From: Planctomycetaceae bacterium
GTDB lineage: Bacteria > Planctomycetota > Phycisphaerae > Phycisphaerales > SM1A02
DNA length: 64,000 nucleotides
Assembly (NCBI GenBank): GCA_947492385.1
Contig: CANLMX010000006.1
Location: 1 to 64,000, forward strand
Reading direction: 5' to 3'
The translations under genes were made by a program, and so were the position numbers. Of the stretch, positions 3,886-63,724 are shown in pieces (position 1 is the first letter of the stretch; every line of letters begins with the position of its first letter). The notes under the pieces were generated by a model. It was given only the letters and a program-made list of their open reading frames with translations. It was not told where the DNA came from and made no database searches.

Positions 3886-3967
3886 ATCGTTCCGGCCGGG
3901 CGCCGCCCGTGGGTCCGATTTCCCCGCCGATTGCGGCAGGAAGGCACGCATGGCCCGGAATCCGGGT

Positions 3968-3973
3968 TATGGT
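3968..3973 (+). promoter_or_regulatory. Candidate -10 box TATGGT, leaderless
   Basis: TATGGT lies 6 bases before the ATG at 3980 with no Shine-Dalgarno sequence. It fits the TANNNT pattern repeated before many genes here and decides the start of the cytochrome gene. Confidence 0.4.
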
Positions 3974-3979
3974 GGTCGC

Positions 3980-5914
3980 ATGCTCGCGCGCGACCGGAGC
4001 CTTGCCTGCCACGACGTCGGCACCGTGCGCGTGATCGCGCGTGCGTTTGCCGTCGTGATCGCCGCCGCCGGGCTCGCAGCCACGGTGCATGGCCAGGTCA
4101 CGGCCACCCCGGCGGACTTCGCGGCTCCCGGCACGCAGCCGGACCCGGCGCACGACACGTTCTACGAGGGCATCGGGTGCGCGAACTGCCACGGCTCGTT
4201 CGACGCGAACACCGCGCCGTTCCGCTCGTGGATCGCCAGCATGATGGCGCAGAGCGCGCGTGACCCCATCTGGCATGCGTCGCTTGCGATCGCGAACCAG
4301 GACGTCCCCTTCTCCGGCCAGGCTTGCATCCGCTGCCATGCGCCCACGGCGTGGCTCGGGGACCGCCATGCGGACGGGTCGACGAATGGGTTCGACCCGC
4401 TCCCGGACTTCGACGGGGTCACGTGCACCTTCTGCCACCGCATGGTGAACCCCGAGGCCGGAGCGCTGAGCGCGGTCGGCTACGCAGACAACATTCCGTA
4501 CGACCCGGATCCGGACGTCGAGATCCTCTCCGCGCTCGCGAAAGCCGGCACCCTGCCCGGCCCCGGGATGCGGACCAACGGGACGTACGTGGTCGATCCC
4601 CGCGATTCCCGCCGCGGGCCGTTCGACGACATCCCGGTGAACTACCACGGCGTGCCGCTGCACTTCTCGCCGTTCCACTCGACCGGCGAGTTCTGCGGGA
4701 CGTGCCACGATGTGAGCAACGCGATCACGGTGCGCCGGCCGAACGGGTCGTGGGGCCTCGACGCCCCCGGCGCGCCGCACGCGACCGGCGACGCGTACGA
4801 CATGTTTCCCGAGCAGCGCACCTACAGCGAATGGCTGAACAGCGCGTTCGCCTCCGATGGGGTCGCATTCGCCGACCGGCGGTTCGGCGGGAACCACCCC
4901 ACCGGCGTGATGCGGACCTGCCAGGACTGCCACATGCCCGACCACGACGGCGCAGGGTGCGTTCTGCACATCGACACCGAATGGGAACGCCCGGACGTCC
5001 CGCAGCACGGGTTCGCGGGCGCGAACTCGTGGGTGGTTCGTGCGGTGCGCGCACAGCTGGGCGCCGAGGCCAGCGGCATGGGCTTGACGCAGAGCCGCGT
5101 CGAGACGGCCATCGCGCGCAACGTGCAGATGCTGCGCGACGCCAGCGACATGGAGCTCGTGCAGGAGGGCCCCGACCTGCGCGTCCGGGTCATCAACCAG
5201 GGTGGCCACAAGCTCCCCACGGGCATCAGCGAGGGACGCCGGATGTGGCTGCACGTTCGCTTCCTGGATGCGGGCGGCGCGGTCGTCGGCGAGAGCGGCG
5301 CGTATGACTGGGCCACCGGCACCCTGCTCGACCGGTCGGCGAAGCAGTACGGCGCGCACATGGTGACCGCCGGCGAGCTTGCGGCGGCCGCGGGGATCCC
5401 GGACCCGACGGACTTCCACATCGCCCTCCTCAACAAGGTCGCGTTCGACAACCGCATCCCGCCGCGCGGGTTCCGGAACGCGGCATTCGCCGCCTTCGGT
5501 GGCGAGCCGGTCGGCGTGACGTATTCCGATGGGCAGCACTGGGACGACACGCGCTACCCCGTGCCGGGCGGCGCGGCGCGCGCGATCGTCACGCTCTATC
5601 ACCAGACCACGACGCGCGAGTACGTCGAGTTCCTGCGCGACGAGAACCGCACGGATTCCACGGGCCAGGCGGCCTACGACCTCTGGGTGCAGTTCGGCCG
5701 CAGCGCGCCCGTCGACATGGACACGGCCACCATCGAACTCGTGCCGGCGTGTGCGCCGCCCGACCTGGACTGCGACGGCACCGTGGGCGGCACCGACCTT
5801 GGGCTGCTGCTGTCCGCGTGGGGCACCTCGGCCGCAGACCTCGACGGCGACGGCATCACCATGGGATCCGACCTCGGGCTGCTGCTCGGGGCGTGGGACG
5901 CAGGCGCTCCCTGA
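3980..5914 (+). CDS. Exported five-haem cytochrome c with dockerin-like tail
   Basis: A 644-residue protein with a signal-like hydrophobic stretch (about residues 17-36, ending VHGQ). Five CxxCH haem-binding motifs are visible: CANCH (C67), CIRCH (C116), CTFCH (C149), CGTCH (C239) and CQDCH (C314). The last 50 residues hold two calcium-binding dockerin-type repeats (DLDCDGTVGGTDLGLLLSAW and DLDGDGITMGSDLGLLLGAW). This predicts an electron-transfer protein outside the cytoplasm, carried or anchored through its dockerin part. The start is placed at 3980 because of the TATGGT box; a GTG at 4025 would also leave a signal peptide. Electron partner unknown. Confidence 0.85.
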   Translation: MLARDRSLACHDVGTVRVIARAFAVVIAAAGLAATVHGQVTATPADFAAPGTQPDPAHDTFYEGIGCANCHGSFDANTAPFRSWIASMMAQSARDPIWHASLAIANQDVPFSGQACIRCHAPTAWLGDRHADGSTNGFDPLPDFDGVTCTFCHRMVNPEAGALSAVGYADNIPYDPDPDVEILSALAKAGTLPGPGMRTNGTYVVDPRDSRRGPFDDIPVNYHGVPLHFSPFHSTGEFCGTCHDVSNAITVRRPNGSWGLDAPGAPHATGDAYDMFPEQRTYSEWLNSAFASDGVAFADRRFGGNHPTGVMRTCQDCHMPDHDGAGCVLHIDTEWERPDVPQHGFAGANSWVVRAVRAQLGAEASGMGLTQSRVETAIARNVQMLRDASDMELVQEGPDLRVRVINQGGHKLPTGISEGRRMWLHVRFLDAGGAVVGESGAYDWATGTLLDRSAKQYGAHMVTAGELAAAAGIPDPTDFHIALLNKVAFDNRIPPRGFRNAAFAAFGGEPVGVTYSDGQHWDDTRYPVPGGAARAIVTLYHQTTTREYVEFLRDENRTDSTGQAAYDLWVQFGRSAPVDMDTATIELVPACAPPDLDCDGTVGGTDLGLLLSAWGTSAADLDGDGITMGSDLGLLLGAWDAGAP

Positions 5915-29430: not shown

Positions 29431-30618
29431 ATGAACACCCCGTTTCGGTCCGTCGCCGTCGCACTCGTCGTGATCCTGATGCCGGCACTCGCCCCGCGGG
29501 CATTTGGGCAGTCTTGCGCCCCCGCGCCCCACGTGCCGATCGCGACCGAGACGACCCCCGCACAGCTGAACCCGCTGATCGCGCAGATGCGCGACTTCCC
29601 CACCGAACTCGATCCGCGCATCTTCTGCGACGGCAGGCTGAAGCCCGCCGTTCGCGACCGCACGATGGATCTGGTGAGTGGGCTGTTCGCACGCCTGAAG
29701 AAGTCGCTGCCGACCTCGATCGCGTCCGTCGCGCCCGACGGAACCGTCAGCGAGGTGCAGGTCACCTGGGGCATCGGTGCCGTGGAACTTCTCGGAAGCG
29801 AGGCCGGCTTTGAATACGACGCCAAGTCCGACCTCGGCATCCACGTCTTCCTGAGCGCAAACGGGACGATCTGCACCGACGTCACCGAGGATGCGACCGG
29901 CAGGGAGATCATCGACTGCGATGCTTGCAGGGCGGCATGCATCGCAGACCCGGTCGCCAAGATCTTCAACAAGCTTGTCGAGTTTGAGCAGGAGCCTTCG
30001 GACCTATCTGACCCAGGCTCCGGCATCACGTTCTACGGCATGGTGGTCGAGGTCACCTTCCACGGAGCGCGCGGTCCGAGCTACCAGGTCTATCCGTCCC
30101 GCGGGCACTGGTCGGTCTCCGAAGACACCTGGGTCAACCAGCCCGTGGCCCAGAAGGACCTGACCGATCCCGCGCAGATGTTGACCGATGCAATGATGTG
30201 GATCAACCGGTACAACGACCTCGCGTGCGAGTACATCGCGTCGCCGGTTGGATTCGACTGCGATCGCTTCGGTGATCTCGATGACGAACTCGGCGATTAC
30301 CGCAATGACGGCATCGTTGCGGCTGGCGGAAACACGCGCTGCACGTCGAACATCACCTACCGCCTGCTGCGTCGTCTGCCGAGCGTGAACATCCCGGACA
30401 CGGTGGATGCGCTCGAGGTGCGCTGCTCGAACATCGGGACGTCGCTTCGGACCTGCCTCGGGGATCTCGACTGCAACAACGAAGTAAACGCGATTGACCT
30501 CGGAGCGCTGCTCGCGGCATGGGGACCCGGCAATGGCCCGGCGGACCTCAACGGCGATGGAGAGGTCAACGGCGACGACCTCTCGCTGCTTCAGTCGAAC
30601 TGGGGCACCTGCAGGTAG
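29431..30618 (+). CDS. Exported protein with C-terminal dockerin-like repeats
   Basis: A 395-residue protein with a signal peptide (VAVALVVILMPALAPRAFGQ). The middle 290 residues have eight or more cysteines and no recognised fold. The end contains two dockerin-type repeats, DLDCNNEVNAIDLGALLAAW and DLNGDGEVNGDDLSLLQSNW. The start at 29431 is the only one that gives a normal signal peptide. It is probably secreted and bound to a partner through the repeats; no cohesin gene is in the window. Confidence 0.8.
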   Translation: MNTPFRSVAVALVVILMPALAPRAFGQSCAPAPHVPIATETTPAQLNPLIAQMRDFPTELDPRIFCDGRLKPAVRDRTMDLVSGLFARLKKSLPTSIASVAPDGTVSEVQVTWGIGAVELLGSEAGFEYDAKSDLGIHVFLSANGTICTDVTEDATGREIIDCDACRAACIADPVAKIFNKLVEFEQEPSDLSDPGSGITFYGMVVEVTFHGARGPSYQVYPSRGHWSVSEDTWVNQPVAQKDLTDPAQMLTDAMMWINRYNDLACEYIASPVGFDCDRFGDLDDELGDYRNDGIVAAGGNTRCTSNITYRLLRRLPSVNIPDTVDALEVRCSNIGTSLRTCLGDLDCNNEVNAIDLGALLAAWGPGNGPADLNGDGEVNGDDLSLLQSNWGTCR

Positions 30619-50355: not shown

Positions 50356-50682
50356 ATGGAGCCGGGAGCACCCGCATCCCCCGCCATCGACGCACGCCGA
50401 CGGCGCATGGCGCTCGCCCTGATGGCGGGGGTCGCGCTTTCGCTGCGTGCGTGGGCGCACCCGGACGATCCCGGTTCCCCACCCCCGGAACTCCCGCCCT
50501 CCGATTGCCCGGCCGACCTCAATGGCGACGGGTTCGTCAGCGGCTACGACCTGGGCTACCTGCTGTCGGAATGGGGAGATCCCGCCCCTGCCCTCGGCGG
50601 AGACATCAACCGGGACGGCGTCATCAACGGGATCGACATCGGCATCCTGCTCGGCGCGTGGGGCGACTGCCCCGGCGACTGA
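50356..50682 (+). CDS. Small exported protein that is little more than a dockerin
   Basis: A 108-residue protein. After a basic N-terminus (DARRRRM) comes a hydrophobic export stretch (ALALMAGVALSLRAWA), a Pro-rich linker and two dockerin repeats, DLNGDGFVSGYDLGYLLSEW and DINRDGVINGIDIGILLGAW. No other domain is present. It could compete for, or cap, cohesin-like partners of larger dockerin proteins. The start was chosen by the TACAGT box. Confidence 0.7.
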   Translation: MEPGAPASPAIDARRRRMALALMAGVALSLRAWAHPDDPGSPPPELPPSDCPADLNGDGFVSGYDLGYLLSEWGDPAPALGGDINRDGVINGIDIGILLGAWGDCPGD

Positions 50683-50697: not shown

Positions 50698-51480
50698 TCA
50701 CTTCTTCGGCGTGAACTTCCGCTTCTTCTTCGGGTCTGAGGCGACGCCCGCCGCTTCCTCGGCCGCCTTCTGAGCTGCCAGGCGGCGTTCTTCGGCCGCC
50801 TGCTCCTCCGCAGCCCGGATCTCCTCCGCATTCACCTTCTTGTTGAGTTCGTCGGAGAGGCGCGCGTGCGATGCGACCGCGGGGATGGTGCCCATCACGA
50901 ACGGCTTGACGGCTTCATCGGTGCAATGCTCGTACTGCCAGCGGAAGAGCGACTGAAGGGTCGCGTGCCGCTCGGACATGAGCGTCGCATAGGCCTTGTC
51001 GAAGGCCTCGCCCTGCAGCGTCGAAAGGCGCGCGACGGCCTCGTCGTCGGCCTGCGTCGTTCCCGACGGCACCTTCCCGCCGCGCCCTTCGGCCAGCCGT
51101 CCCATGATGACCAGGACCGCCGTGTCGTTCGCGCGGATGCGTTTGCCGAGGTCCTTCACCGCGTCGGAGGCTCCGCGCTCCATCGCCAGCTGGCCCATCG
51201 CGACGTCGCCGTTGGCGGTCTCCGCGACCTCGCGCAGGAAGGCGTCGATCGTCCGCTCGGACGGATCCGCTGGGGCCTCGGCGGCCGCGGCCTCTGCGCC
51301 GGGTGCGGGCTCGGGGGCCGAGGGCTCGTCTTCCCCTTCCTTGCTCGAGGGTGCGGCCGGAACCGGCGCGGCGGCACCAGCGGGGCGCGCCGCAGGCGGC
51401 TTCTTTGCGGCGGGGGCCTGGGCCAGGCATGCCGCGCATGCGGCAAGCACGGTGGGAACGATGAGGAGGTGGAGTCGCAT
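50698..51480 (-). CDS. DUF4142-type exported protein
   Basis: A 260-residue protein with a signal peptide (MRLHLLIVPTVLAACAACLAQA), a Pro/Ala/Glu-rich linker (about 25-80), a helical bundle with FLREVAETANGDVAMGQLAMERG and AFDKAYATLMSERHATLQSLF as in DUF4142, and a Lys-rich C-terminus ending KKKRKFTPKK. It starts 14 bases after the outer-membrane receptor gene, so it is probably the last gene of the TonB locus transcript. Role unknown. Confidence 0.75.
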   Translation of the reverse strand: MRLHLLIVPTVLAACAACLAQAPAAKKPPAARPAGAAAPVPAAPSSKEGEDEPSAPEPAPGAEAAAAEAPADPSERTIDAFLREVAETANGDVAMGQLAMERGASDAVKDLGKRIRANDTAVLVIMGRLAEGRGGKVPSGTTQADDEAVARLSTLQGEAFDKAYATLMSERHATLQSLFRWQYEHCTDEAVKPFVMGTIPAVASHARLSDELNKKVNAEEIRAAEEQAAEERRLAAQKAAEEAAGVASDPKKKRKFTPKK

Positions 51481-51494
51481 GGGTCCCTCGCGGG

Positions 51495-54400
51495 TCAGAA
51501 GAAGAGCGTGTAGCTGAGCGCGAACGTGAAGTCCACGCCGGTGGTGTAGGTCGAGTTCAGCCCGTCGTTGCCGTCGAACGAGCGGTACTGCGTCTGTCGG
51601 TCGGGGTTGGTCAGGTTCTTGGCGGCGAAGTTGAAGCGCAGGCCCTGGATGATCTCTTGCGACGCCGTGAAGTTCACTGTTCCGTACCCGATCTGGTAGA
51701 GGTCGGGGACGAGCGCGGTGCCGGTCGGCTGGGCACTGATCGACGCAGCGCTGATGAGCGAGTCGCCCTGCAGGTTGTAGAAGATGCCGAGCTGCGTGCC
51801 GGTCGGTCGGAAGTCGTAGGTGACGTTGGTGTTGAAGAGGTAGTTCGGCGTCGCGGTCATCGGGATGCTGCTCCCTCCGCCGAAGGGCGCCAGCTCCGCG
51901 GCCTGGTCGGCCGGCAGCGTCACAGAGGACTCCATGTACGTGAAGTTGAAGCCGCACGCCAGGCCCTCGAACGCCTCGCCCAGGATCGGGTCAAGCGTCA
52001 CCCTCGACTCGAGTTCCACGCCCAGGAGGCTGGCCGTGTCGTAGTTCAGTGCCGTGGTGTACGAGAAGCCCGACGTGAACTGCTGCTGGTACTGGATGGG
52101 CCTGCTGATGGTCTTGTAGAAGAGCGACGCCGAGATCAGCCAGTCGGTGTTCGGCGTCCAGTCGATGCGCGCGTCATAGTTGTTGATCGAGCTCATCTCG
52201 AGCGCCGGGTTCCCGATGAACACGGGGCCGCCGATGTACTGGTACTGCAGCACCGGCACCAGCTCGAAGAAGTTCGGGCGCGCAAGGGTTTCCGCGTAGG
52301 AGCCGCGGAGCACCAGCTGGTCGGTGATGTTCCAGTTGAGCCCCACCATGGGCAGGAACAGGTTCTCGGTGAACCCTGCGTTGACCGCGGGATTGATCTG
52401 GCCGGTGGCTGGATCCTTCACCGAGATGTAGCCCGCGGCGGGGTCGAGCGGATTGATCCACACCGCCTGGTCGTCGGGGATGACCGACGTGCTCATCTCG
52501 GTGCCTTCGTACCGCAGGCCGGTGACGAGGTTCATGGTCTCGTTGAACGGGAGGTCGATCATGCCGTACCCGGCGGTGATCGACTGACTGCCGTTGTACG
52601 AGATGTCGAACTGCGACTGGTTGATCGGGTGCACCTGCGACGGGAACACGGCGCTCCACGGCTCGGTGAACGGCACCGGCGTCACCGGCGGGTCCTGGTA
52701 CTGCGAATTCGGGTCGCCGTTGTTCTGCCACGTGTCCTGCCGGTACGAGCGCGAGACGCTGTCGACGAAGGCGCCGAACTTCAGGTAGCCCTCGCGGTCG
52801 TTCCACTGCAGGAACGGCAGCTTGCCGTTGAAAGCGAACTGCGTGCTGTCCTCGATGGTCTGGTAGAAGATGTGCTGCACCCAGCCGACGTTCGTGTCCT
52901 GCGCCGGCGGGTACGCCGTCCATCGCGACGGATCGGTGAAGACGAACGGCGGGAAGACGATCTCCTGCGTGGCCTGCCACTTGGCAGAGAACTGCGTCTG
53001 GTCGGGCTGCTCTTCCTCGGCGCGGCTCAGGGAGAGCCGCCAGTCGACCGTCGGGGCCCCGAGGCCGATCGGCGACGGGATCTCGTCGTCCTCGCCGGGG
53101 CCGAGGAAGCCGAGCGTGTGCTCGCCGTTCAGGATGAACGCCTGCGTGCTGACTTGGCTGTAGTCGAGCGTCTCGAGCCGGTTGTAGGGGGCCTCGTTCG
53201 GGCGGTCGACGCCCGGGCTGGTGGGGTCGTTCGGGTCGTAGCCCGGGAAGAAGAACTGCTTGCCGCGCGTGTCGATCAGCCGCACGGCCTGGTCCTCGGA
53301 CAGCAGCGTGTAGATGAACTTACCGCCGACCTTGTGCTCCTCGGTCTCGATGCCGGCGGAACCCATGCCGCCCCACTGGATCGACTGCGTGCCCTGCGTG
53401 ACGTCGAAGAGTTCGGTGGTGAAGTCGCCGACGCCGAGCTGCTCGGGCGAGAGCGCCGCGCCGGGCGCGGTCTGCACCAGCGAGTTGAGCTGGCCGTTGT
53501 CGAAGAACGACGCGCCCTGGTCGTAGAAGAAGTTGCCGAAGGCGCCGATCTTGACGCCGTCGTCGACCTCCCACGAATCGCCGCCGGCGGCGGACCACTT
53601 GTAGATCAGCGGTGCATCCCCGGTCGTGGTCCCGGTCGGGTTGGGCCACGACTGGCCCGCCAGGTCGGGCCTCAGCTTCTGCGTGTCGTTCTGGCCCCAG
53701 AATCCGAGGCCGCCGCCCGGGTACGTGAGGAACTCGCCGTTCTTCACCTGCGAGTTGAAGCCCATCTGGTACCGCAGCTGCAGCACCGCCTCGTCGGGGA
53801 TGTCCTTCAGGACGACGTTGACCGCGCCGCCCGACGCCTCGCCCTGCTGGTCGGGGGTGAAGCTCTTGCTCACCTCGATGCGCTCGATCACCGCCGTCGG
53901 GAACTGGTCGAGCTGGACGGCGCGCTTGTCCGGTACCGAGACCGGAAGGCGGACGCTGTCGAGGAGCACGCTCACGTAGCGGTCGGGAAGGCCGCGCACG
54001 ACGGCGTACTTGCCGTCCTGCAGCGAGGCTCCCGGTACGAGAAGCAGTGCCGCGGCGGCATCGGATGCGCCCGAGCGCGAGATCGTCTCGACGCCCAGCA
54101 CGTCCAGCAGCTGCGGGCTGTCCAGGCGGATCGAGAAGTCCAGCGGCAGCGTCACCACCACCGGCTCGAGGTCGGGCAGCGGCATCACGGCCTGCGTGTC
54201 GACCACCTCGGGGCCCAGTTCCATGTCCTGGACCACGAACTCTTCCATGTCCTCGAACTCGCCGGCCATCTGGACGTCGGCCTCGACGAGGCGGCCGCCG
54301 GTGATGGTGACGTTCGGCCGCACTTCGCGGACGTACCCCGACTTCGTGATGATGAGCGTGTAGGTGCCGTCCGGGACGTTGGGGATCAGGAACGATCCGT

Positions 54401-54587
54401 TGGCCGAGGTCGAGACGCGCGTCTTGGTGCCCAGGATGTTGACCGTGGCGATCTCGATCGGAGAGCCGAACTCCTTGTCGGTCACCGTGCCGCGGATGGC
54501 ACCCGACGCCGGCGCCTGCGCCCGCGCGAGGGGCGCGACTGCGAGGCACAGGATGGCTGGAACCGCGCGGACCGCGTGATTCACCAC
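51495..54587 (-). CDS. TonB-dependent outer-membrane receptor, Oar-like
   Basis: A 1030-residue protein. After a signal peptide (about 1-23) comes a carboxypeptidase-regulatory-like beta domain (about 28-110, GTVTDKEFGSPIEIATVNI). A candidate TonB box LEPVVVTL near residue 140 precedes the plug, where AVVRGLPDRYVSVLLDSVRLP and EASGGAVNVVLKDIP are typical. The C-terminal 750 residues have the aromatic/polar alternation of a 22-strand barrel and end in phenylalanine (ALSYTLFF). It would import a large ligand with energy from the ExbB-ExbD-TonB proteins encoded in the same locus. Substrate unknown. It overlaps the upstream lipoprotein gene by 7 bases. Confidence 0.9.
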   Translation of the reverse strand: MVNHAVRAVPAILCLAVAPLARAQAPASGAIRGTVTDKEFGSPIEIATVNILGTKTRVSTSANGSFLIPNVPDGTYTLIITKSGYVREVRPNVTITGGRLVEADVQMAGEFEDMEEFVVQDMELGPEVVDTQAVMPLPDLEPVVVTLPLDFSIRLDSPQLLDVLGVETISRSGASDAAAALLLVPGASLQDGKYAVVRGLPDRYVSVLLDSVRLPVSVPDKRAVQLDQFPTAVIERIEVSKSFTPDQQGEASGGAVNVVLKDIPDEAVLQLRYQMGFNSQVKNGEFLTYPGGGLGFWGQNDTQKLRPDLAGQSWPNPTGTTTGDAPLIYKWSAAGGDSWEVDDGVKIGAFGNFFYDQGASFFDNGQLNSLVQTAPGAALSPEQLGVGDFTTELFDVTQGTQSIQWGGMGSAGIETEEHKVGGKFIYTLLSEDQAVRLIDTRGKQFFFPGYDPNDPTSPGVDRPNEAPYNRLETLDYSQVSTQAFILNGEHTLGFLGPGEDDEIPSPIGLGAPTVDWRLSLSRAEEEQPDQTQFSAKWQATQEIVFPPFVFTDPSRWTAYPPAQDTNVGWVQHIFYQTIEDSTQFAFNGKLPFLQWNDREGYLKFGAFVDSVSRSYRQDTWQNNGDPNSQYQDPPVTPVPFTEPWSAVFPSQVHPINQSQFDISYNGSQSITAGYGMIDLPFNETMNLVTGLRYEGTEMSTSVIPDDQAVWINPLDPAAGYISVKDPATGQINPAVNAGFTENLFLPMVGLNWNITDQLVLRGSYAETLARPNFFELVPVLQYQYIGGPVFIGNPALEMSSINNYDARIDWTPNTDWLISASLFYKTISRPIQYQQQFTSGFSYTTALNYDTASLLGVELESRVTLDPILGEAFEGLACGFNFTYMESSVTLPADQAAELAPFGGGSSIPMTATPNYLFNTNVTYDFRPTGTQLGIFYNLQGDSLISAASISAQPTGTALVPDLYQIGYGTVNFTASQEIIQGLRFNFAAKNLTNPDRQTQYRSFDGNDGLNSTYTTGVDFTFALSYTLFF

Positions 54588-55813
54588 GGCTCCCCGAGCT
54601 GCTTGCGCACCGCATCGATCTTCTGCGCGGTCAGTGGGTCAGGGACGACCCCCGCGACGGCCATGGCGACGCACGTGGCAGTGAGGTCCTCCGCGCGCGG
54701 ACGGCCGTTGGGGTTGATCAAGCCCGCATCGAGCGCATCCCGGAAGGACTGCCGCGCCATGATCTGGTCCCCTGCCTTCGCCCACGCGCTGCCGATCGCC
54801 CGAAGGCTCCGCGCGAGGCGAGTGGTCATGATTTCACCGCGGCGACGGTCGAACTGCTCGCGAAGCCGGCGGAGTTCCTCCGCTGCACCGGCGCGGTCCC
54901 CTGCGGCGATCCGGGCCTCGACGACCATGGCGCCGATGGGGGCCTCGTCCTCCGGGAGGAGTTCCGCCGCCTTGAAGAGGTCGACCGCAGACTTGAGCCT
55001 GGTGGATGCGTCCGACGCCAGGCCGAGTTCGCGCAGCACGCCGGAAAGCTTGACGTTCGCATCGATCCGCAGGTCCACGGGAAGTCCTGCAATCGCGCCG
55101 TCGAGCGCCGCGAGCGCGCGCGTCCGCAACGGTTCGTCCTTCGCCCACCGCTTCAGGAGCGCGGTCCATCCTTCGACCGCGGAACGGACCATGTCGAGGT
55201 CCCTGGTCGCGATCGCTGCATCGAGTGCATCGGCCTCGGCAGGCAAGTCCGCCGACGCGAGCGTCGGGATGACTGCGGCACGGATGCGCGGCATGTCGCT
55301 TGGCACCACCAAGGGCAGCAGTTCGGCAGCCATCGCTGGCTCGCCGGCGCGCTCGAATGCGACCGCCGTCTCGAAAGCGACCCGCTCGCGCGACCAGTGC
55401 GATTCCTGCGGCATCGCGGCCTTCGCCCGCTTGGCGAGGTCAACGGCGTCCTCGCGCCTGCCCTCTCCGGCCGCACGCTGGGCGGCGCGCGCGTAGATCT
55501 CCGCGCGCCGCCAGTCGAGCACCTCGCGTGCCATTTCGACCGCGCGCCGTTCCATCCCGAGTTCCAGTGCTGCGAGCGCAACCTCTTCCTGGGTGCGGGC
55601 ACGTGGTCGGGCGTGGGGTCCGCCCGGCATCGCGCATGCCACTTCGAATGCCTGCTCCACGAGGGCCTGCGACTGCGCGCGAGAGGCCGTCGTGGCTGCA
55701 GCCGGGGTCTGGCCGTTGCCACCGCGCGGCGCGCTGCATCCCTCAAACCACAACGTCCCGGCCGCGATCGCGGCCAGGACGGCTCGTGAAACCTTGACTT
55801 CCAAGTCCTGCAA
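54581..55813 (-). CDS. TPR-like helical lipoprotein of the TonB locus
   Basis: A 410-residue protein whose signal ends FEGC, a likely lipobox. The remainder is helical hairpins with TPR-like spacing (ALAALELGMERRAVEMAREVL; DLAKRAKAAMP; AGDRAGAAEELRRLREQF). It would sit on a membrane surface and bind other proteins. It is coupled to the receptor gene by overlap and preceded by a strong hairpin. Confidence 0.7.
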   Translation of the reverse strand: MQDLEVKVSRAVLAAIAAGTLWFEGCSAPRGGNGQTPAAATTASRAQSQALVEQAFEVACAMPGGPHARPRARTQEEVALAALELGMERRAVEMAREVLDWRRAEIYARAAQRAAGEGRREDAVDLAKRAKAAMPQESHWSRERVAFETAVAFERAGEPAMAAELLPLVVPSDMPRIRAAVIPTLASADLPAEADALDAAIATRDLDMVRSAVEGWTALLKRWAKDEPLRTRALAALDGAIAGLPVDLRIDANVKLSGVLRELGLASDASTRLKSAVDLFKAAELLPEDEAPIGAMVVEARIAAGDRAGAAEELRRLREQFDRRRGEIMTTRLARSLRAIGSAWAKAGDQIMARQSFRDALDAGLINPNGRPRAEDLTATCVAMAVAGVVPDPLTAQKIDAVRKQLGEPW

Positions 55814-55835
55814 GGGTCCCTTTCGCCAGATGCTA

Positions 55836-55872
55836 GGCGCCTGGCGGCCGAATGTCCCGGCCGCCAGGCGCC
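55836..55872 (-). promoter_or_regulatory. Perfect 15-bp hairpin inside the TonB locus
   Basis: Stem 55836-55850 pairs with 55858-55872 around the loop AATGTCC, between the beta-helix gene stop (55901) and the next start (55813). No T run follows on the minus strand, so it may be an attenuator or an mRNA-stabilising end that raises the beta-helix product over the receptor. Confidence 0.6.
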
Positions 55873-55900
55873 CAATGCAATCAGAAGCGTTCAGTGAAAC

Positions 55901-57625
55901 TCAGCCGCACGAACCCCAGGCGCCGAGGAGGATGCCCAGGTCCTGACCGTCGACCGAGGCGTCGCCGTTCAGGTTGCCCGCGCCCGTGCCGCCCCAGTTG
56001 CCGAGCAGGACGCCCAGGTCCTGGCCGTCAACCGAGCCGTCGCTGGTGAGATCAGCCGGGCAGTTCGACTCGACGGTGCAGCCGTTCGGGGGAACGACGC
56101 TGTAGCCGTACGCGTGAGCCGCCGTCCAACCGCACATCCAGTTCTCCGTGGGGCTGAAGGCACCACGGAAGGTGACCGGCGTGAAGAACCCGTTGTTCGG
56201 GGCCTGGGTCACGCTGGTCGCCGCCGCACCCGCCGCGCGGGGGTCGAGCGCGGTGACCGGGGCGATCGTGCCGCCCGTGAGGATCTGCGGCGAGCCGCGC
56301 GTGATCGACACGATCGGCAGCGCCGCGGGCTCCTGGACGTTGTTGTTCGCCGCTGCGAACACACCACGGGTGTTGGCTTCGGTGTAGGCCGCAGCGTTCG
56401 AGTTGCCGTAGAACACCGTATCGGTGATCTGGTTCAGCTTGCCGGCGGACTGGGCCGAGTAGAAGCTGGCGTTCGACGCAGTGCTTCCCGACCCCGCATT
56501 CACGGTGGGATACACGTTGTAGTCCGTGGTCCAGGTGGCCGCGAAGGTGTGGGTTCCGTTGTGGCCGTAGCCGGTCTGGCCGTCGGTGGCCTCGCCGTCG
56601 GTGTTGTCGTTGCGGACCACGGCCTCACCGGCGTTCATGATGATGCTGTTGTTCACCTGCATGCGCGCGTTGTCGCGGTACTTCAGCGCGCGCTTGCCGC
56701 TGAGCGGCTGGCCGATCAGCGTCATGTTGTAGAGGTTGACCGTGGTCACCGGCTGCGCGTCGGACTTCGCGGCGCCGTCGATCTCGATCATCGAGTCGCA
56801 CACGCCCGAGCCCGAGGCGGCGTTCAGGGAGTATCCCTGGACGATGAGGCCGAACTGCGCGCGGCCGCGCCAACCGTGGTCGAGGTCGAACGAGTCGTCA
56901 CCGATGTTCCAGATGCTGAAGTACTTGAGGTCGACCTTGCCGCCCCAGATCTCGATGCCGTCATCGACGTTGTTCATGATCTCGACGTGGTCGATCTCGG
57001 TGCCCTGGCCGACGCCGCCGAGCGAGATGCCGTTGAGCTCGGTGCCGAGGCCCACCACCTTGCCGCCGTAGCGGAACGAGGCGTAGCGCAGGGTGCCGCT
57101 GTCGTCCTGATCGTTGCCGCCGCCGTAGCGGACGCGCGTGTCGTTGGCGTCGGCCGCGACCAGGCCTTCCATGTTCGCGAAGTTGGCCGCGTTCGGCGTG
57201 GCCGTGTTGCCAGCCGGGGCGCCGTTGCCGTACTTGCCGATGTAGCCGTTGCCCATGATCGTCAGGTTGCCCCACTCGTTGGCAGCAGCACGCCACGAAC
57301 CCTGCGGGTTCGCGACGGTCCACGTTGCGCGGTCAGCGGCCGACGTGAAGATGATGGGCTCGGAGGCGCTGCCGTCAGCCACGATGCGGCCGTCGCGACC
57401 GACCGCGAGCGAACCGCCCGCTTCGCTGGCGATCACGGTGCCGGCCTCGATGGTGAGGGTGGCGCCGGGCTTGACGAAGACCTGGCCCGAGAGCTTGTAG
57501 ACGTTGTTCTTCGTCCAAGTCTGCGAGGTGGTGATGTCGCCCGAGATGGTGATGTCGGCGGCAGTGGCGGTACCGGCGGCAAGGGCCGCGGTACCGAGGG
57601 CGAGAACGAACTTGCGAGTCTTCAT
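55901..57625 (-). CDS. Secreted beta-helix protein with dockerin tail, TonB locus
   Basis: A 574-residue protein with a signal peptide (FVLALGTAALAAGTATA). The N-terminal part, ITISGDITTSQTWTKNNVY and GATLTIEAGTVIASE, starts a right-handed beta-helix with polar turns (LKYFSIWNIGDDSFDLDHGW) running to about residue 400. The last 50 residues hold two dockerin repeats (DLTSDGSVDGQDLGVLLGNW, NLNGDASVDGQDLGILLGAW). It lies between the TonB machine and its receptor, so it is a probable extracellular partner or ligand collector. Ligand unknown. Confidence 0.85.
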   Translation of the reverse strand: MKTRKFVLALGTAALAAGTATAADITISGDITTSQTWTKNNVYKLSGQVFVKPGATLTIEAGTVIASEAGGSLAVGRDGRIVADGSASEPIIFTSAADRATWTVANPQGSWRAAANEWGNLTIMGNGYIGKYGNGAPAGNTATPNAANFANMEGLVAADANDTRVRYGGGNDQDDSGTLRYASFRYGGKVVGLGTELNGISLGGVGQGTEIDHVEIMNNVDDGIEIWGGKVDLKYFSIWNIGDDSFDLDHGWRGRAQFGLIVQGYSLNAASGSGVCDSMIEIDGAAKSDAQPVTTVNLYNMTLIGQPLSGKRALKYRDNARMQVNNSIIMNAGEAVVRNDNTDGEATDGQTGYGHNGTHTFAATWTTDYNVYPTVNAGSGSTASNASFYSAQSAGKLNQITDTVFYGNSNAAAYTEANTRGVFAAANNNVQEPAALPIVSITRGSPQILTGGTIAPVTALDPRAAGAAATSVTQAPNNGFFTPVTFRGAFSPTENWMCGWTAAHAYGYSVVPPNGCTVESNCPADLTSDGSVDGQDLGVLLGNWGGTGAGNLNGDASVDGQDLGILLGAWGSCG

Positions 57626-57670
57626 GGATGCGTCTTTCGTGGGAAACGGTGCCTGTCGGAGTCAGTCAAC

Positions 57671-57687
57671 GGGCCGAACGTCGGCCC
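57671..57687 (-). promoter_or_regulatory. Hairpin in the leader of the beta-helix gene
   Basis: A perfect 7-bp stem with a 3-base loop, 46 bases before the ATG at 57625. The 172-base gap upstream also holds an inverted repeat at 57755-57773 (CGTTCA, 7 bases, TGAACG), a possible operator. Together these suggest separate control of this gene. Confidence 0.4.
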
Positions 57688-57797
57688 CATGTCCACACAG
57701 ACGCAAAGGATGCCCTTCGCGCTTTTCAACAAGGTGTTCGTTACGACAAAGGGGCGTTCATCTTGCGTGAACGTTTCGTTCAGCACCATAAGTCATT

Positions 57798-59219
57798 TCA
57801 GCGCTTGGACTTGGATGCGCGCTCGACTTGCTCCAAGTACCGCGCGACGTCCTCGCGCGGACGGATCGATTGGGCGTCCCGCAGCAGCGGGAGCGCGTCG
57901 GCGAAGCGCCCCTGCGACACGTAGACCTGGGCGATCTTCACCTTGGCGGGCGCGGCGAACGCGTCAATCCGGGCCGCCCGCTCGTAGTACAGGATGGCCT
58001 GGTCCGGGCGCCCGCCCTTCGAGTGGTGCTGCGCGAGCAGCATCAGCGCCTCGCCATCAAGCGGGTCGAGCTCGATCACCTCCTCGAGCACCCGAGCCGT
58101 CTCGTCGTCCCCCGCCCCGGCGCTCATCGCGAAGCGCGCCTGGAGCTTCAGGCACTTGCGCTTGTCCGTGTCGGACATCGACGCGTCCCACTGCGAACGA
58201 ACCTTCCCGAGGAGCGCCTTGGCCTGCTGCGATCCCCCCCGGGCGGCCAGCATCTCGGTGCAGCGGATCGCCCGCGCCGGCGGCTGCGCCGGGTCCTTGT
58301 CGATCGCGCGTGCGAAGGCGCCGAAGGCCATGTCGGGAAGCGACTCCGACAGGTAGATGTCGCCGAGCGTGTACAGGCTGTCGGTCGAGCTCTTGCCGAT
58401 CGAGTCGAGCGCCTCGAGGTTGACCGCGGCCTTCGCCGGCTGCTTGAGCCCGAGGTAGGTGTGCGCCTGGAGCATCCAGAAGTCGGGCTTCTCCGGGAAC
58501 GTCGCGATGAGGACGTCGAGGAGGCTCGCCGCGTCCTCGTACTTCCCCTGCTTGAACACGGACCGCGTGAGTCCCAGCCGCCACTCGACATTCTCCGGCT
58601 GCAGGAGCAGCGCGTTGCGGTACGCCGCCTCGGCCGGCTGGTAGTCCTGCTTGCTGGAATGGCAGAACCCGAGCAGGCCGTACGAATATGCGTCCGCCCC
58701 GCCCAGTTCGATCATCTTGTTGAACGCGGCGATCGCATCGTCGATCTTGCTCTGGCGAACGCAGATGAGCCCGATGTTCCGGTAGGCGCGCCGGAAGCTC
58801 GGGAACTTCGAGGTCGCGGTCCGGTAGTTGGCCAGCGCGTCGTCGAGCCGCTCCTGCTGGAACTGGATCCCGCCCAGGGTGAGGTCGAGGATTGCGGAAC
58901 CGTCGTTTCGGACCGAGTCGCGGAGCAGCGCCTCGGCCGCGGGCAGGTCGTTCGGCATGAGCTGCCGGACGAGTTCGAGCACCGCGATCTCGTCGGGAGA
59001 GATCTTCGGCTCGAGCTCGGGATTGATCCCGTAGCCCGCCACGAACGACTTCTGGAAGCCAGGGTCGCCCCAGATCGCGTTCAGGTCGGGGGGCGAGACC
59101 TGCGTCGAGGGCGCTGGCGGCCCGCCGAGGTCGCCGGCGGCATGGGCGCCCGAGGCGATCGCGACGCATGCGGCGATGCCGGTGACGAGGGCTCGGAGGG
59201 CGGTGCGCGTGTTCTTCAT
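57798..59219 (-). CDS. Periplasmic TPR protein of the TonB system
   Basis: A 473-residue protein with a signal peptide (about 1-27) and roughly ten TPR hairpins, such as GSAILDLTLGGIQFQQERLDDAL, YRNIGLICVRQSKIDDAIAAF and ALPLLRDAQSIRP. A TPR protein next to TonB is a feature of the TonB2-type systems of Vibrio and Shewanella, where it helps the complex work. The upstream ATG at 59234 is also possible. It follows tonB by 52 bases. Confidence 0.82.
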   Translation of the reverse strand: MKNTRTALRALVTGIAACVAIASGAHAAGDLGGPPAPSTQVSPPDLNAIWGDPGFQKSFVAGYGINPELEPKISPDEIAVLELVRQLMPNDLPAAEALLRDSVRNDGSAILDLTLGGIQFQQERLDDALANYRTATSKFPSFRRAYRNIGLICVRQSKIDDAIAAFNKMIELGGADAYSYGLLGFCHSSKQDYQPAEAAYRNALLLQPENVEWRLGLTRSVFKQGKYEDAASLLDVLIATFPEKPDFWMLQAHTYLGLKQPAKAAVNLEALDSIGKSSTDSLYTLGDIYLSESLPDMAFGAFARAIDKDPAQPPARAIRCTEMLAARGGSQQAKALLGKVRSQWDASMSDTDKRKCLKLQARFAMSAGAGDDETARVLEEVIELDPLDGEALMLLAQHHSKGGRPDQAILYYERAARIDAFAAPAKVKIAQVYVSQGRFADALPLLRDAQSIRPREDVARYLEQVERASKSKR

Positions 59220-59271
59220 GGCGTGGTCCGTCATGGTGGCGGGTCGTTCGTGGAGGGTTCCTGTGCGCGGG

Positions 59272-59997
59272 TCAGCGGGGCTGGAACCTCATGGGGACGC
59301 GCATGCGGCAGCTGACCCGCTTGCCGCCCTTCATGGCCGGCTCGAATCGCCACTGCCGCACCGCATCGAGCGCGGGCTTCTCGAACTCGGGGCGCGTGGC
59401 CTTCTCGACCTTCGGGTTCACCACGCGTCCGGTCTCGTCGACGATGAAGATCAGCGAGACGACACCCTCGGCCTTCACCTTGCGCAGTTCGGCGGGGTAT
59501 GTCGGCGCCACCTGCTGCACGGCGCGGGGGCGTTGGTCGATCTCGGACATGCTGAAGGCGCCCTGGAACTCGTCCTGCGTCTCGCCGCCGCCGATGCGGC
59601 CCGTGCCGCCGATGCGGCCGCCGCCCTGCAGCGAGGCCACCGCCCCGAAGTCGCCGCCGCCTGCGGCGCCCGCGTTGCCGCTCAGCGCCGCCTCGATGGC
59701 GCTGAGGCTGGCGGCATCGAGGGCCGGGGCGTCGTCCGAGGACGATGGGGCCTCCACGTTCGAGGCCACCGACTCCGGGTCCGGCGGGGCCTCGTCCTGA
59801 TCCTTGATCTCGTCCTGGGGTTGCTGTTCCTCGGGCTTCTCCTCGTTCTCCTTCTCGACCGACTCGGTGACGATCTCGACGTCGCGCTTGCTCGCCTGCT
59901 GCTCCTCGTGGGAGAACAGGTACCCGCCGAACAGCCCGACGAGCACGTGCACCACGAGCGCGGCGAAGATGACGAGGATGACCTTGAGGAAGTCCAC
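59272..59997 (-). CDS. tonB: TonB energy transducer
   Basis: A 241-residue protein: one N-terminal membrane helix (VILVIFAALVVHVLVGLFGGYLF), an acidic Pro/Glu-rich periplasmic spacer (about 35-85), a Gly/Ala linker and the C-terminal TonB domain with APTYPAELRKVKAEGVVSLIFIVDETG and ALDAVRQWRFEPAMKGGK. It passes energy from ExbB/ExbD to the receptor. The membrane histidine (VHVL) typical of TonB is present. Confidence 0.92.
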   Translation of the reverse strand: MDFLKVILVIFAALVVHVLVGLFGGYLFSHEEQQASKRDVEIVTESVEKENEEKPEEQQPQDEIKDQDEAPPDPESVASNVEAPSSSDDAPALDAASLSAIEAALSGNAGAAGGGDFGAVASLQGGGRIGGTGRIGGGETQDEFQGAFSMSEIDQRPRAVQQVAPTYPAELRKVKAEGVVSLIFIVDETGRVVNPKVEKATRPEFEKPALDAVRQWRFEPAMKGGKRVSCRMRVPMRFQPR

Positions 59998-60009
59998 GGC
60001 GCGCCGGCG

Positions 60010-60429
60010 TCACTTCTTGTCGGTGTTGATCCCGACCTTCGCGATCCCGATCTTCCGGACCTCGTCCAGGACGGCGACCACGAACTTGAAGTCCGCGGAT
60101 CCGTCGCTGTTGATGATGACCTTTGGGTCCTTCGCGGTCAGCTTGTAGGTCTGCAGCTTCATGGGCAGCTGCGTGATCAGGATCTTGTCCTTGTTGAAGA
60201 AGACCTCGCCCTTGTCGTTCACGCTGAGCGTGACGGCCTTGTCCATCTCCTGGTTGTCGCCGAGCGACTGCGCGCTGGAAGCGCCCGGGAGCGACACCTG
60301 CACGCCCTGATTCTTCGACATGCTCAGGGACACCATGATGAACGTCGCCAGCAGGAAGAAGATGATGTCGATGAGCGGGATGATGTCGATCCGCGCCCCC
60401 TTCTTGCCTCGGCGTCCTCCGCCTGCCAT
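60010..60429 (-). CDS. exbD: ExbD-type biopolymer transport protein
   Basis: A 139-residue protein with one membrane helix carrying the essential aspartate (DIIPLIDIIFFLLATFIMVS) and a periplasmic domain (VSLPGASSAQ, KAVTLSVNDKGEVFFN). It forms the proton path with ExbB. It sits 2 bases after exbB and 12 bases before tonB. Confidence 0.93.
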   Translation of the reverse strand: MAGGGRRGKKGARIDIIPLIDIIFFLLATFIMVSLSMSKNQGVQVSLPGASSAQSLGDNQEMDKAVTLSVNDKGEVFFNKDKILITQLPMKLQTYKLTAKDPKVIINSDGSADFKFVVAVLDEVRKIGIAKVGINTDKK

Positions 60430-60431
60430 GG

Positions 60432-61958
60432 TCAGGACCCTCCCGCCGGTGCCGAGGCGGCGCCGTCGAGGAAGTCGAATGCGTCATCATCGCCGCCGGT
60501 CGACGGGGGGGCGGACGGCGGCTCGGGGGCCGGACGCGCGGCGCGGCCCGCGGGTCCCTCGAGCGTGAGCTTCAGCTGCTCACCGGCGGCGAGGAGCTCG
60601 GTCTCGACCTGCTCGATCCGGTTGTTCAGGTAGTTGAACGGGATCAGGCAGATGATCGCGATGATCAGGCCGAAGGCCGTCGCGATGAGCGCCTCGGCGA
60701 TGCCGCCCGTGATGGCGCCCGGGGAGCTCAGGTCGCCGCCGATCACGGCGAACGATCCCATCATGCCCGTGACCGTTCCTAGGAGGCCCAGGAGCGGCGC
60801 CAGCGTGATGACGGTGTCCAGGACGGCGATGCCGCGCTTGTACCGCTTGATGGTCCGGGTCTCGGCGTAGGTCAGCGCGTGGGACAGCGACTGGTCGCGA
60901 TGCTCGAGCGCAAACCCGAGCGTCTTCACGATCGCGTCCTTCGACCCGTTGGCGATGTCGATGGCCGCCTGCAGGTTGCCCTTGGTGACCTCGCCGAAGA
61001 ACTTCATCACCGTCTTCGGGCTGCGCTTGCGCTGCTCGTTGAGCAGGAAGAACACACGCTCCAGCACCACCGCGAGGCCGATCACCGACGCCGCGAGCAT
61101 GGGCCACATGATCGGCCCGCCCTTGATGAAGATGTGCACCAGGCTGGCCTTGGCCACCAGCGCCTTCAGCGCCCCGCCCCGCGAGGGGTCCAGGGGCAGC
61201 GTTCCGCTTCCCGAGGCCACGAGCGTGCCGAGCGCCGGCCCGAGGTCGCCGTCGAGTGGCCGGATGAGCGGGTTCGCCGAACCGACCTGCGGGACCGCGA
61301 CCCCGGACTCGCCGCTGTCGGCCCGGAACAGCGTCACGGGCCCGATCATCGCGAACTGCCCGTTGAGCACCGTGCCGAGCATGTCGACGCCGACGCCCGC
61401 GAAGCGGACGCCACCGAGCGCCTCGGCGATGCGCTTGATCGTGAGGGCGGCGAACGTGGTCTGGGCGCCGAACTTTTCGCTCGGGGTGAGCGTCTTGTTC
61501 TCGACCGCCTGCTTCGCGGCGACGATCGGCTCGCCGTAGACCTGCAGCTCGCCGACAGCGATCTTCGTCTCGAAGGTGCGGACATACTCGTCGAGCAGGC
61601 TGCTGACGTAGCTCAGCTCGTCCTGGCGCGACTTGATCTCGGCCTGCATCGTGCCGATCTCGAGGGCGCCCGCGTCGACCAGGCGCTGGACGCGCTGCTC
61701 TTCCTTGCGGAGCGCGACCACCTCTTCCTCGAGCGCCGTGAGCTGCTGCGACATCGGCAGCTTCTCCGAGGCGATCTGTGCACGCATGGCGTTGAGGTCG
61801 GCGATGGTCTTGTTGAGCTCCGACTCGGCGTTGCGGGCGACCTTGCCCATCGCGGCGTCGCCGGCGGCCTGCTGGGAGTCGGGCGCCTGCGCGACGGCGG
61901 ACGGCGCGATCGCAAGGGCGGATGCGAGGACGATGATCGTGGCGGCAATGCGGCGCAT
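60432..61958 (-). CDS. ExbB-type proton channel with long N-terminal periplasmic extension
   Basis: A 508-residue protein, twice the size of ordinary ExbB. A signal peptide (MRRIAATIIVLASALAIAPSAVAQ) leads a coiled-coil/periplasmic domain (about 25-255). The channel part follows with three membrane helices: GGPIMWPMLAASVIGLAVVLERVFFLL, TLAPLLGLLGTVTGMMGSF and EALIATAFGLIIAIICLIPFNYL. The extension is as in TtpC-like ExbB proteins of TonB2 systems. It energises TonB by proton flow. Confidence 0.9.
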   Translation of the reverse strand: MRRIAATIIVLASALAIAPSAVAQAPDSQQAAGDAAMGKVARNAESELNKTIADLNAMRAQIASEKLPMSQQLTALEEEVVALRKEEQRVQRLVDAGALEIGTMQAEIKSRQDELSYVSSLLDEYVRTFETKIAVGELQVYGEPIVAAKQAVENKTLTPSEKFGAQTTFAALTIKRIAEALGGVRFAGVGVDMLGTVLNGQFAMIGPVTLFRADSGESGVAVPQVGSANPLIRPLDGDLGPALGTLVASGSGTLPLDPSRGGALKALVAKASLVHIFIKGGPIMWPMLAASVIGLAVVLERVFFLLNEQRKRSPKTVMKFFGEVTKGNLQAAIDIANGSKDAIVKTLGFALEHRDQSLSHALTYAETRTIKRYKRGIAVLDTVITLAPLLGLLGTVTGMMGSFAVIGGDLSSPGAITGGIAEALIATAFGLIIAIICLIPFNYLNNRIEQVETELLAAGEQLKLTLEGPAGRAARPAPEPPSAPPSTGGDDDAFDFLDGAASAPAGGS

Positions 61959-61963
61959 GGGAT

Positions 61964-62860
61964 TCACTTGATCTCCACCGGCAGGGGGACGAACGCAGGC
62001 GGATGCTTGCCTTGGATGACCTCGAGCGCGACGAGCAGCTGGCCCGCGATCTCCGGTGCGGGCTTCCAGTTCCACCCGTCCTCACCCGGGGTGCCGATGC
62101 CGGCTTCGCCGCGCGGCGACAGGTAGTACGCCTGCGCGAGCCCGACGTAGATCACCTGCACTTCGCTGGAGCTTCCGTCGGCGAGCGTCCGGACCTCGTA
62201 CGAGAGGGAGATCTCGCTGTTGGCCCGGTTCATCTCGTTCAGGATGCCCAGCACGTTCTGGAAGCGTTCGGCGACCGTCACGCGCGTGGTCGAGGCCTCG
62301 GTCGGGATGCGCTGCAGGAGCGGTGCGAGCCGCTCGGCCACCGGTTGGGGCATGCGCTTGGCGAGACCGCGAACCTGACCCTCCATCACGCTGACTGCGG
62401 TGGCGAGCTGGGCGGCGGTGGCCTTCAGCTGCTCGTTCTCCGCGACCAGCCGTTCCTTCTTCTGGTCGCTCTCCGCAACGGCCTTGACGCTCTCGGCGAT
62501 CTTCTCCTTGAGGACGCTGACTTCCTTGCCGACCAGCTCGATTCGCCCTTCCAGGATCTCCTTGCCCTGCTGCCAGTCGTTGCGCTCCTTGGCGATGATC
62601 TGCTGGGTCTCGATCCACTTCGCCAGCGTCAGCCGCGTCTCCTCGAGGCCCGGCCGGTCCGAGGGCTCGCTGGCGGCGGCGGGCGCCGGTGCAGCTGCCG
62701 GGGCGGCGCCCGGGGCCTTGGCCGGGGCCTTCGCTCCCGGGGCCGGGGTGCCTTGGCGCGACCGCGCGGGCGCCTTCGCCTGGTCCTGGGCCGCTCCCAG
62801 CATCAGGCATGCGAGCGTGAGCGCGGCGGCCGCGACGGCGATGGGTCGAGTCAGGTGCAT
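61964..62860 (-). CDS. DUF3450-type periplasmic coiled-coil protein, first gene of TonB system
   Basis: A 298-residue exported protein. After a signal peptide (IAVAAAALTLACLMLGAA) and Pro/Ala linker comes a coiled coil (about 80-165) and a C-terminal domain with VIYVGLAQAYYLSPRGEAGIG and DGWNWKPAPEIA. The pattern fits DUF3450, whose genes usually precede TtpC-type exbB. It ends 5 bases before exbB. An alternative ATG at 62869 lies in a palindrome. Confidence 0.82.
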   Translation of the reverse strand: MHLTRPIAVAAAALTLACLMLGAAQDQAKAPARSRQGTPAPGAKAPAKAPGAAPAAAPAPAAASEPSDRPGLEETRLTLAKWIETQQIIAKERNDWQQGKEILEGRIELVGKEVSVLKEKIAESVKAVAESDQKKERLVAENEQLKATAAQLATAVSVMEGQVRGLAKRMPQPVAERLAPLLQRIPTEASTTRVTVAERFQNVLGILNEMNRANSEISLSYEVRTLADGSSSEVQVIYVGLAQAYYLSPRGEAGIGTPGEDGWNWKPAPEIAGQLLVALEVIQGKHPPAFVPLPVEIK

Positions 62861-62876: not shown

Positions 62877-63094
62877 GGGCGGAGGCATCTGGGCGAGTCG
62901 CCGTTGCCTGCAGCCGATCGGGGACCGGGGACGATATGAACACAACGCAAGTGGTTTGCGAGCGTTCGGTTCAGATTCGGTTGGCGACGTTGGGATTCGC
63001 AGGACGTTCCGTGATGGGAGCGCAACCAGAAATGCGTTCAGGTTCCTGTAACCGGTCCGTTCGACGGCCCCATGGAAGGAGCCCTGTCGTGGAA

Positions 63095-63724
63095 ATGAAG
63101 ACATGCATCGCGCTTGCCGTCGCTGGCGGCGCATTCACCGTCGGCGCCACGAGCGCTGGCATCGCGCCCGGAGCATTCGCCAGCTGGACCTCGTCGGCCC
63201 CACCCGGCTACGTGGAGGACGCGGCGGTTGCCCCCGGACCGGGAACCTACGAGGCATCGGTGACCGATGCCACGGCGTCGCTTGTGTGGGGCGCGTCCTC
63301 GAGCGCGTTGTCTGGTCATGCATCGGGTGGAACGACCGTGACGGCGCGCGCACGCGGCGTGGCGCTCCTGACCTTCGATGGCGACACGTCGTTCGCCATC
63401 ACCTGGGCCATGCAGCAGTGCGTCGCCGAGGGCAACGTGATCGGCTGGGGTCTGGTTGACCTGGCCGGAGGCGGAGACCCGACGCTGGGCGTCCAGTTCG
63501 TGGGCATTGAGGCGACGGCGTTCGGAGGCGTGGCCGCCACTTCGTCGGGCTCCTTCGTGGGTACCGTGGCCGCGGGCACCTACCTGCTGGTGATGGCCGC
63601 CGAGAACGCGGCCGCAGGCGGGGCATTCTCGTACTCGGCGACGTTCTCGCAGGTGCCCACTCCCGGGGCGTTGGTCACCCTGCTGGTTGCGGGCGTGGTG
63701 GCAACGGCGCGTCGGCGCCGATAG
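63095..63724 (+). CDS. Exported protein with VPTPG-type C-terminal sorting tail
   Basis: A 209-residue protein with a signal peptide (MKTCIALAVAGGAFTVGATSA), a beta-rich body and the tail VPTPGALVTLLVAGVVATARRRR, the third sorting-tail protein in the window. An AAGGAG (63076) would suit the GTG at 63089 slightly better than the ATG at 63095. It diverges from the TonB operon across a 234-base gap that holds possible promoters for both. Function unknown. Confidence 0.8.
   Translation: MKTCIALAVAGGAFTVGATSAGIAPGAFASWTSSAPPGYVEDAAVAPGPGTYEASVTDATASLVWGASSSALSGHASGGTTVTARARGVALLTFDGDTSFAITWAMQQCVAEGNVIGWGLVDLAGGGDPTLGVQFVGIEATAFGGVAATSSGSFVGTVAAGTYLLVMAAENAAAGGAFSYSATFSQVPTPGALVTLLVAGVVATARRRR

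Follow-up and report, generated by a model that had tools for sequence, protein, structure and literature searches.

A candidate phosphate-starvation TonB uptake cluster with its own motor and a secreted beta-helix protein in Planctomycetota

We analyzed a 64,000-nucleotide stretch of DNA (the window) from contig C6 (CANLMX010000006.1), part of a Planctomycetota genome bin that totals 2.07 Mb and is 69% complete. On its minus strand lies a gene cluster that encodes a TonB motor, a secreted beta-helix protein (BH), a lipoprotein and a TonB-dependent receptor. We consider this cluster best explained, with good likelihood, as a TonB uptake device that has a motor of its own and would serve the cell during phosphate starvation. 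Its nutrient is probably phosphorus, because the cluster carries PHO-type boxes, a homologous cluster in Alteromonas is linked to phoBR-pstS, and published work on the Caulobacter protein ElpS points the same way. The initial annotation had seen no clue to the ligand and proposed an undescribed nutrient, which these three lines of evidence do not bear out. Its view of a two-part device for capture and import stands as the best reading, with the BH/receptor pair and the motor conserved together.

A module conserved across Planctomycetota

Gene calls and Pfam searches recover all nine leftward genes that the initial annotation had listed, each on the minus strand. The motor operon begins with a TtpB-like DUF3450 protein (61964..62860; PF11932, E = 9.9e-25), followed by a long, TtpC-like ExbB of 510 amino acids (60432..61958), whose MotA_ExbB domain occupies residues 354-456 (E = 2.3e-28) behind a long N-terminal extension. 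ExbD (60010..60429; PF02472, E = 5.7e-28), TonB (59272..59997; PF03544, TonB_C, E = 4.5e-20) and a TtpD-like protein matching TPR families (57798..59234) complete the motor. Next come BH (55901..57625), a TPR-like alpha-solenoid lipoprotein (54581..55813) and an Oar/CC0171-type TonB-dependent receptor (51495..54587) with Pfam barrel (E = 2e-30), Plug and CarboxypepD_reg matches. The last gene encodes a DUF4142 protein (50698..51480; Pfam E = 4e-22).

We surveyed the neighborhood of BH in two samples, 294 Planctomycetota genomes and 80 loci from named genomes. The scan of named genomes returned planctomycete-like relatives only, and its 80 loci include lake Phycisphaera-like metagenome-assembled genomes, the cultured planctomycete Poly30, whose locus L145 carries the cluster, and a metagenome-assembled genome labeled Candidatus Brocadia. 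About 39 of the 294 genomes contain the BH core, at identities of 45-64%, and in about 35 of them DUF3450 lies on the same contig. Complete neighborhoods, defined as those that extend 9.5 kb or more to each side of BH, were available for 32 relatives, and the lipoprotein, receptor, DUF3450, long ExbB, TonB and TPR genes are present in every one (32/32). This clustering is far beyond chance, and the joint conservation of the BH/receptor pair with a TtpBCD-type motor, on which the proposal of a two-part device had depended, thus held. The relatives show five gene orders with constant content, a pattern that speaks for function and against recent ancestry as its cause. The first eight genes, DUF3450 through the receptor, are therefore a conserved module. 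DUF4142, initially counted as a member, is peripheral: it occurs in 12 of the 80 relatives, on the other strand in two of these. Beyond the module, the relatives share no flanking enzyme gene that could serve as a clue to the ligand.

The first five genes had been matched to the TtpC-type TonB2 systems. DUF3450, long ExbB, ExbD, TonB and TPR protein do occur together, but the short ExbB of those systems is absent from the window, where ExbD begins 3 nt after the end of TtpC and leaves no place for one. The window belongs to a form shared by 29 of 55 relatives, in which there is no room for this gene.

The cluster receptor and TonB are the only ones found in the window organism's genome, a claim limited by its 69% completeness: the genome holds one Plug domain, in the receptor, and one TonB_C domain, in the cluster TonB, together with four further MotA/ExbB domains elsewhere. 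Exactly one Plug and one TonB_C domain are likewise found in the near-complete genomes G251 and G198 and in the single-contig, complete genome G127. These copies are presumably the cluster's own, since the cluster is present in all three genomes. With a single receptor and a single TonB, TonB in such organisms may exist for phosphorus and not for iron.

A divergent BH subfamily with 38-41% identity is found in five further genomes (G118, G178, G149, G043 and G015), where a DUF3450 match lies within a few kilobases (weak in G043 and G015). The linkage of BH to DUF3450 would thus be older than the family studied here.

PHO-type boxes at the cluster promoters

A PHO box consists of tandem 11-nt direct repeats, with the unit CTGTCAT in Escherichia coli and GTTCACC in Streptomyces (PMC4415409). 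Upstream of BH in the window lies a PHO-type box on the minus strand (57750..57782; TGAACGAAACG TTCACGCAAGA TGAACGCCCCT), whose repeat unit, GTTCACG, is near that of Streptomyces. A weaker box precedes DUF3450 (62930..62984, minus strand). When the window was scanned with a matrix trained without it and without locus L092, the site before BH ranked first in the 64 kb and that before DUF3450 ranked fifth. The boxes before DUF3450 are stronger in genomes G294 and G296 than in the window. A strict form of the pattern has three exact matches in four genomes, all of them at this cluster and the window BH box among them.

An unbiased search for tied repeats upstream of planctomycete BH genes scored 953 at period 11, versus 541-660 at periods 8-10 and 12-14, and returned the unit CTTCAC N5, read on the strand of the gene. 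Period-11 matches occur in 37 of 105 BH upstreams (5.7 expected), and other periods lack comparable enrichment. A matrix trained on half of the BH upstreams detects the held-out half (p = 1.5e-17), places 9 of 30 pstS upstreams above the 99th percentile of shuffles, and rarely scores before lipoprotein (7%) or TonB (1%) genes. Taken as a whole, the pstS scores shift only slightly (p = 0.19 with three units and 0.007 with two), and a noisy matrix built from pstS upstreams alone gives a weak enrichment before BH (p = 0.0016).

The window organism has a phoB-phoR-pstS-pstC-pstA operon at L224 (G000:C10:40000-52000), positions 11186-6119 on the minus strand, with names assigned by reading translations. 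No box lies directly upstream of its pstS; when the whole operon was scanned, the best site of this 12-kb region was found about 60 nt before phoB. In G127 a site precedes a porin-pstS pair, and in G209 similar four-unit boxes precede both pstS and BH. Six Pseudoalteromonas have, before both DUF3450 and BH, four CTGTCAT-like half-sites with a spacing of 11 nt, and such half-sites are absent from the control upstreams of the receptor, asd and exbD. The same two promoters thus appear to be marked in two phyla by different box sequences. These comparisons also provide a candidate PHO-box consensus for Planctomycetota.

An E. coli-type PHO box was sought in Planctomycetota and rejected: the window and the 80 loci hold one match, essentially none, and the box there reads TTMACR N5. 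One-mismatch genome matches outside the cluster adjoin no recognizable Pho gene. One near-match stands just before a gene for a lipoprotein with a weak Peptidase_M48 match (L211, G000:C10:22861), which is a possible further member of the regulon. Divergent from DUF3450, the gene at 63095-63724 on the plus strand encodes a secreted protein whose end is PEP-CTERM-like (VPTPGALVTLLVAGVVATARRRR); the two genes have the intergenic region and its weak PHO-type box in common and may be co-regulated.

The beta-helix protein and its homologs

The identification of BH as a beta-helix was upheld by its structure model, which is a confident beta-helix (predicted local distance difference test, pLDDT, of 86), despite the lack of any Pfam match. 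A PDB sequence search with BH gave no match, and Foldseek with the model gave no specific relative (best E = 1.7e-3; template modeling, TM, score <0.35). The structural neighbors of the model are generic and include phage tailspikes and alginate epimerases and lyases (Z about 19-21). Comparison of orthologs reveals invariant residues, many of them acidic (D221, D222, E225, D243, D244, D247, D249, R253 and Q257), and our guess is that these Asp, Glu, Arg and Gln residues could form a binding site for a metal or for phosphate. The acidic residues and the tailspike and alginate-enzyme neighbors would also suit an enzyme that acts on an extracellular polymer, such as a polysaccharide lyase, hydrolase or depolymerase, with the receptor importing its carbohydrate product. 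We regard this as improbable: the structural matches reflect the general beta-helix arrangement, no glycan gene is conserved nearby, and refolded Caulobacter ElpS showed no phosphatase activity (PMC2996285).

The window BH begins with a plain signal peptide and carries no lipid anchor. A crude lipobox test is passed by only 2 of 120 planctomycete BHs; the lipoprotein there is instead the product of a gene of its own. The model of this lipoprotein is an alpha-solenoid (pLDDT 90) whose fold is that of a generic TPR-like solenoid. No Pfam SusD model matches it, and SusD is absent among the fold matches listed, an absence that carries no weight.

The initial annotation had also counted the dockerin of BH as a significant element of the device. 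This C-terminal tail (55907..56068, minus strand) is a generic, GC-type dockerin-like sequence whose match to NF041540 falls under the curated cut-off (17 bits versus 29). Searching the window organism's genome with full-length BH hits about 68 other places, and nearly all of these are tail-only matches. Among orthologs, only those of the same family have the dockerin doublet; elsewhere in the class one degenerate repeat takes its place, and beyond the class there is unrelated sequence or nothing. The conserved part is the core, residues 1-505. We thus rejected the dockerin as a functional clue, as its tail is a generic tag that most orthologs have replaced. Three other copies lie in the window (50494-50670, 30448-30612 and 5747-5902), and the presence of a dockerin-like tail on several dozen proteins of the genome suggests a general sorting or anchoring tag. 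Elsewhere in the window, a multihaem cytochrome-like protein (3950-5911, plus strand) with Cytochrome_C7 and MtrC/F-like matches hints at extracellular electron transfer.

Outside Planctomycetota, BH homologs occur in Pseudomonadota and Bacteroidota. Plasmids and chromids of Pseudoalteromonas carry DUF3450-ExbB-ExbB-ExbD-TonB-TPR-BH-receptor, in the order of the window. The Alteromonas macleodii plasmid pBGP9 encodes, on one strand, phoB, phoR, a phosphate-binding protein, an oxygenase, BH, the receptor and then DUF3450-ExbB-ExbB-ExbD-TonB-TPR. In Sphingomonas and Indioceanicola, BH and receptor genes stand beside genes of a type II secretion system (T2SS), and the bacteroidete Aureibacter has a receptor-BH pair. 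The gene layout in Sphingomonas is the one reported in the literature for Caulobacter ElpS/CC0171, and the Sphingomonas protein in the position of ElpS matches BH (E = 2e-25). The window receptor has homologs in the partner receptors (phmmer E = 9e-35 to 1e-45), those of Sphingomonas, Indioceanicola and Alteromonas falling between 9e-35 and 8e-44. The BHs of Pseudomonadota and Aureibacter carry a lipoprotein-like signal. No receptor adjoins the BH homolog of a Marinobacter plasmid. The BHs of Indioceanicola and of some Pseudoalteromonas (L081 9764-12634 and L078 8405-11200) hold two tandem copies of the core domain, those of other species one.

These homologs also bear on whether the cluster takes up iron, as the Vibrio TtpBCD-TonB2 system does, with the phosphate boxes secondary or misread. 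Siderophore iron uptake in Vibrio vulnificus depends on TtpB2, TtpC2 and TtpD2 (PMC6957404). The window receptor, however, has no detectable phmmer match to a siderophore receptor from a cluster-bearing Pseudoalteromonas record, no iron gene is conserved in the neighborhoods, and both the boxes and the linkage to phoBR indicate phosphate. An iron importer is accordingly very unlikely.

A possible phosphorus importer and its relation to known systems

We propose that, when phosphate runs short, a PhoB-type regulator would bind the 11-nt repeat boxes before BH and probably those before DUF3450. BH would then be secreted, in Planctomycetota with no lipid anchor of its own and the TPR lipoprotein beside it. 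It may gather a phosphorus-containing substrate or present it to the Oar/CC0171-type receptor, which a private TtpB-TtpC-ExbD-TonB-TtpD motor would power by analogy with the Vibrio TonB2 system. Phosphate would then reach the cell interior via PstSCA.

Several observations weigh against this proposal. No phosphatase or other phosphorus enzyme lies within the cluster, and the homologous motor of Vibrio serves iron-siderophore uptake (PMC6957404). The window DUF3450 box is weak, the phoB box of the same genome is modest (score 9.3), the A. macleodii BH has no clear box, and boxes are missing from several BH and pstS upstreams; a PHO box in any case speaks for regulation and not for a ligand. The apparent homology of BH to ElpS is drawn from shared family context, namely the Sphingomonas layout. 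Finally, there is a known case of an Oar receptor that acts in TonB-dependent export (PMC6434023).

This last point underlies the main alternative, in which the receptor and motor export or release BH, which then acts outside the cell under phosphate control without import of a ligand. The TonB-dependent transporter Oar of Myxococcus xanthus is required for secretion of the protease PopC (PMC6434023), the window receptor is Oar-like with a CarboxypepD_reg domain, and BH is its constant partner (32/32 complete neighborhoods). Yet in Caulobacter, deletion of cc0171 did not stop ElpS-3Flag production and ElpS release was T2SS dependent (PMC2996285), and the lipoprotein-like signals on the BHs of Pseudomonadota and Aureibacter indicate that other surface routes exist. 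Export is thus rather unlikely, and the enzymatic and iron-uptake explanations are less likely still.

The uptake proposal extends to a broader claim, which we make tentatively: Planctomycetota and Alteromonadales may share a self-powered phosphorus importer that combines a phosphorus-devoted TonB motor with an extracellular beta-helix capture protein and is the only TonB system of some planctomycetes. Its components are known, but the literature searched held no report of them combined in a single cluster that is under phosphate control and has a motor of its own. Phosphorus limits growth in lakes and oceans, and TonB-powered outer-membrane uptake of phosphorus compounds is poorly known. A single testable system would then link ElpS, an orphan protein family of Caulobacter, with a planctomycete cluster that has gone unstudied and with the TtpBCD motors, which are little understood.

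Among known systems, the SusCD-type systems of Bacteroidota place a CarboxypepD_reg-bearing receptor next to an alpha-helical lipoprotein. The window receptor has this domain and likewise adjoins an alpha-helical lipoprotein, whereas the latter matches no SusD model and a BH protein is added. Oar and PopC of M. xanthus resemble the window pair in that an Oar-like TonB-dependent transporter works with a secreted protein, but PopC is a protease that needs Oar for its secretion (PMC6434023) and BH has no protease match.

The TonB2 system of V. vulnificus comprises TtpB2, TtpC2, ExbB2, ExbD2, TonB2 and TtpD2, all six essential to its function (PMC6957404). DUF3450, long ExbB, ExbD, TonB and TPR genes occur there in the same order as in the window, which differs in lacking the short ExbB, in adding a dedicated receptor and BH to the cluster, and in having PHO-type boxes in place of a known iron role. 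Because a separate short ExbB is absent, we regard the window motor as a variant of the Vibrio type and not a strict member.

A further parallel is with Caulobacter, whose PhoB regulon takes in the T2SS as well as several TonB receptors (PMC11208175). Its CC0170 (ElpS) and CC0171 are a secreted protein and receptor encoded before T2SS genes; ElpS is made under phosphate starvation and anchored at the surface, and supernatants show more alkaline phosphatase activity when it is overproduced (PMC2996285). In both pairs a secreted surface protein, apparently of one family, has a TonB receptor next to it and a link to phosphate starvation. They differ in that ElpS is a lipoprotein, whereas the window BH is not lipid-anchored and is accompanied by a TPR lipoprotein of its own gene. 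The window module also contains no T2SS genes, the secretins of its genome being on other contigs: the Caulobacter pair adjoins T2SS genes, while the window pair sits in a TtpBCD-TonB motor cluster.

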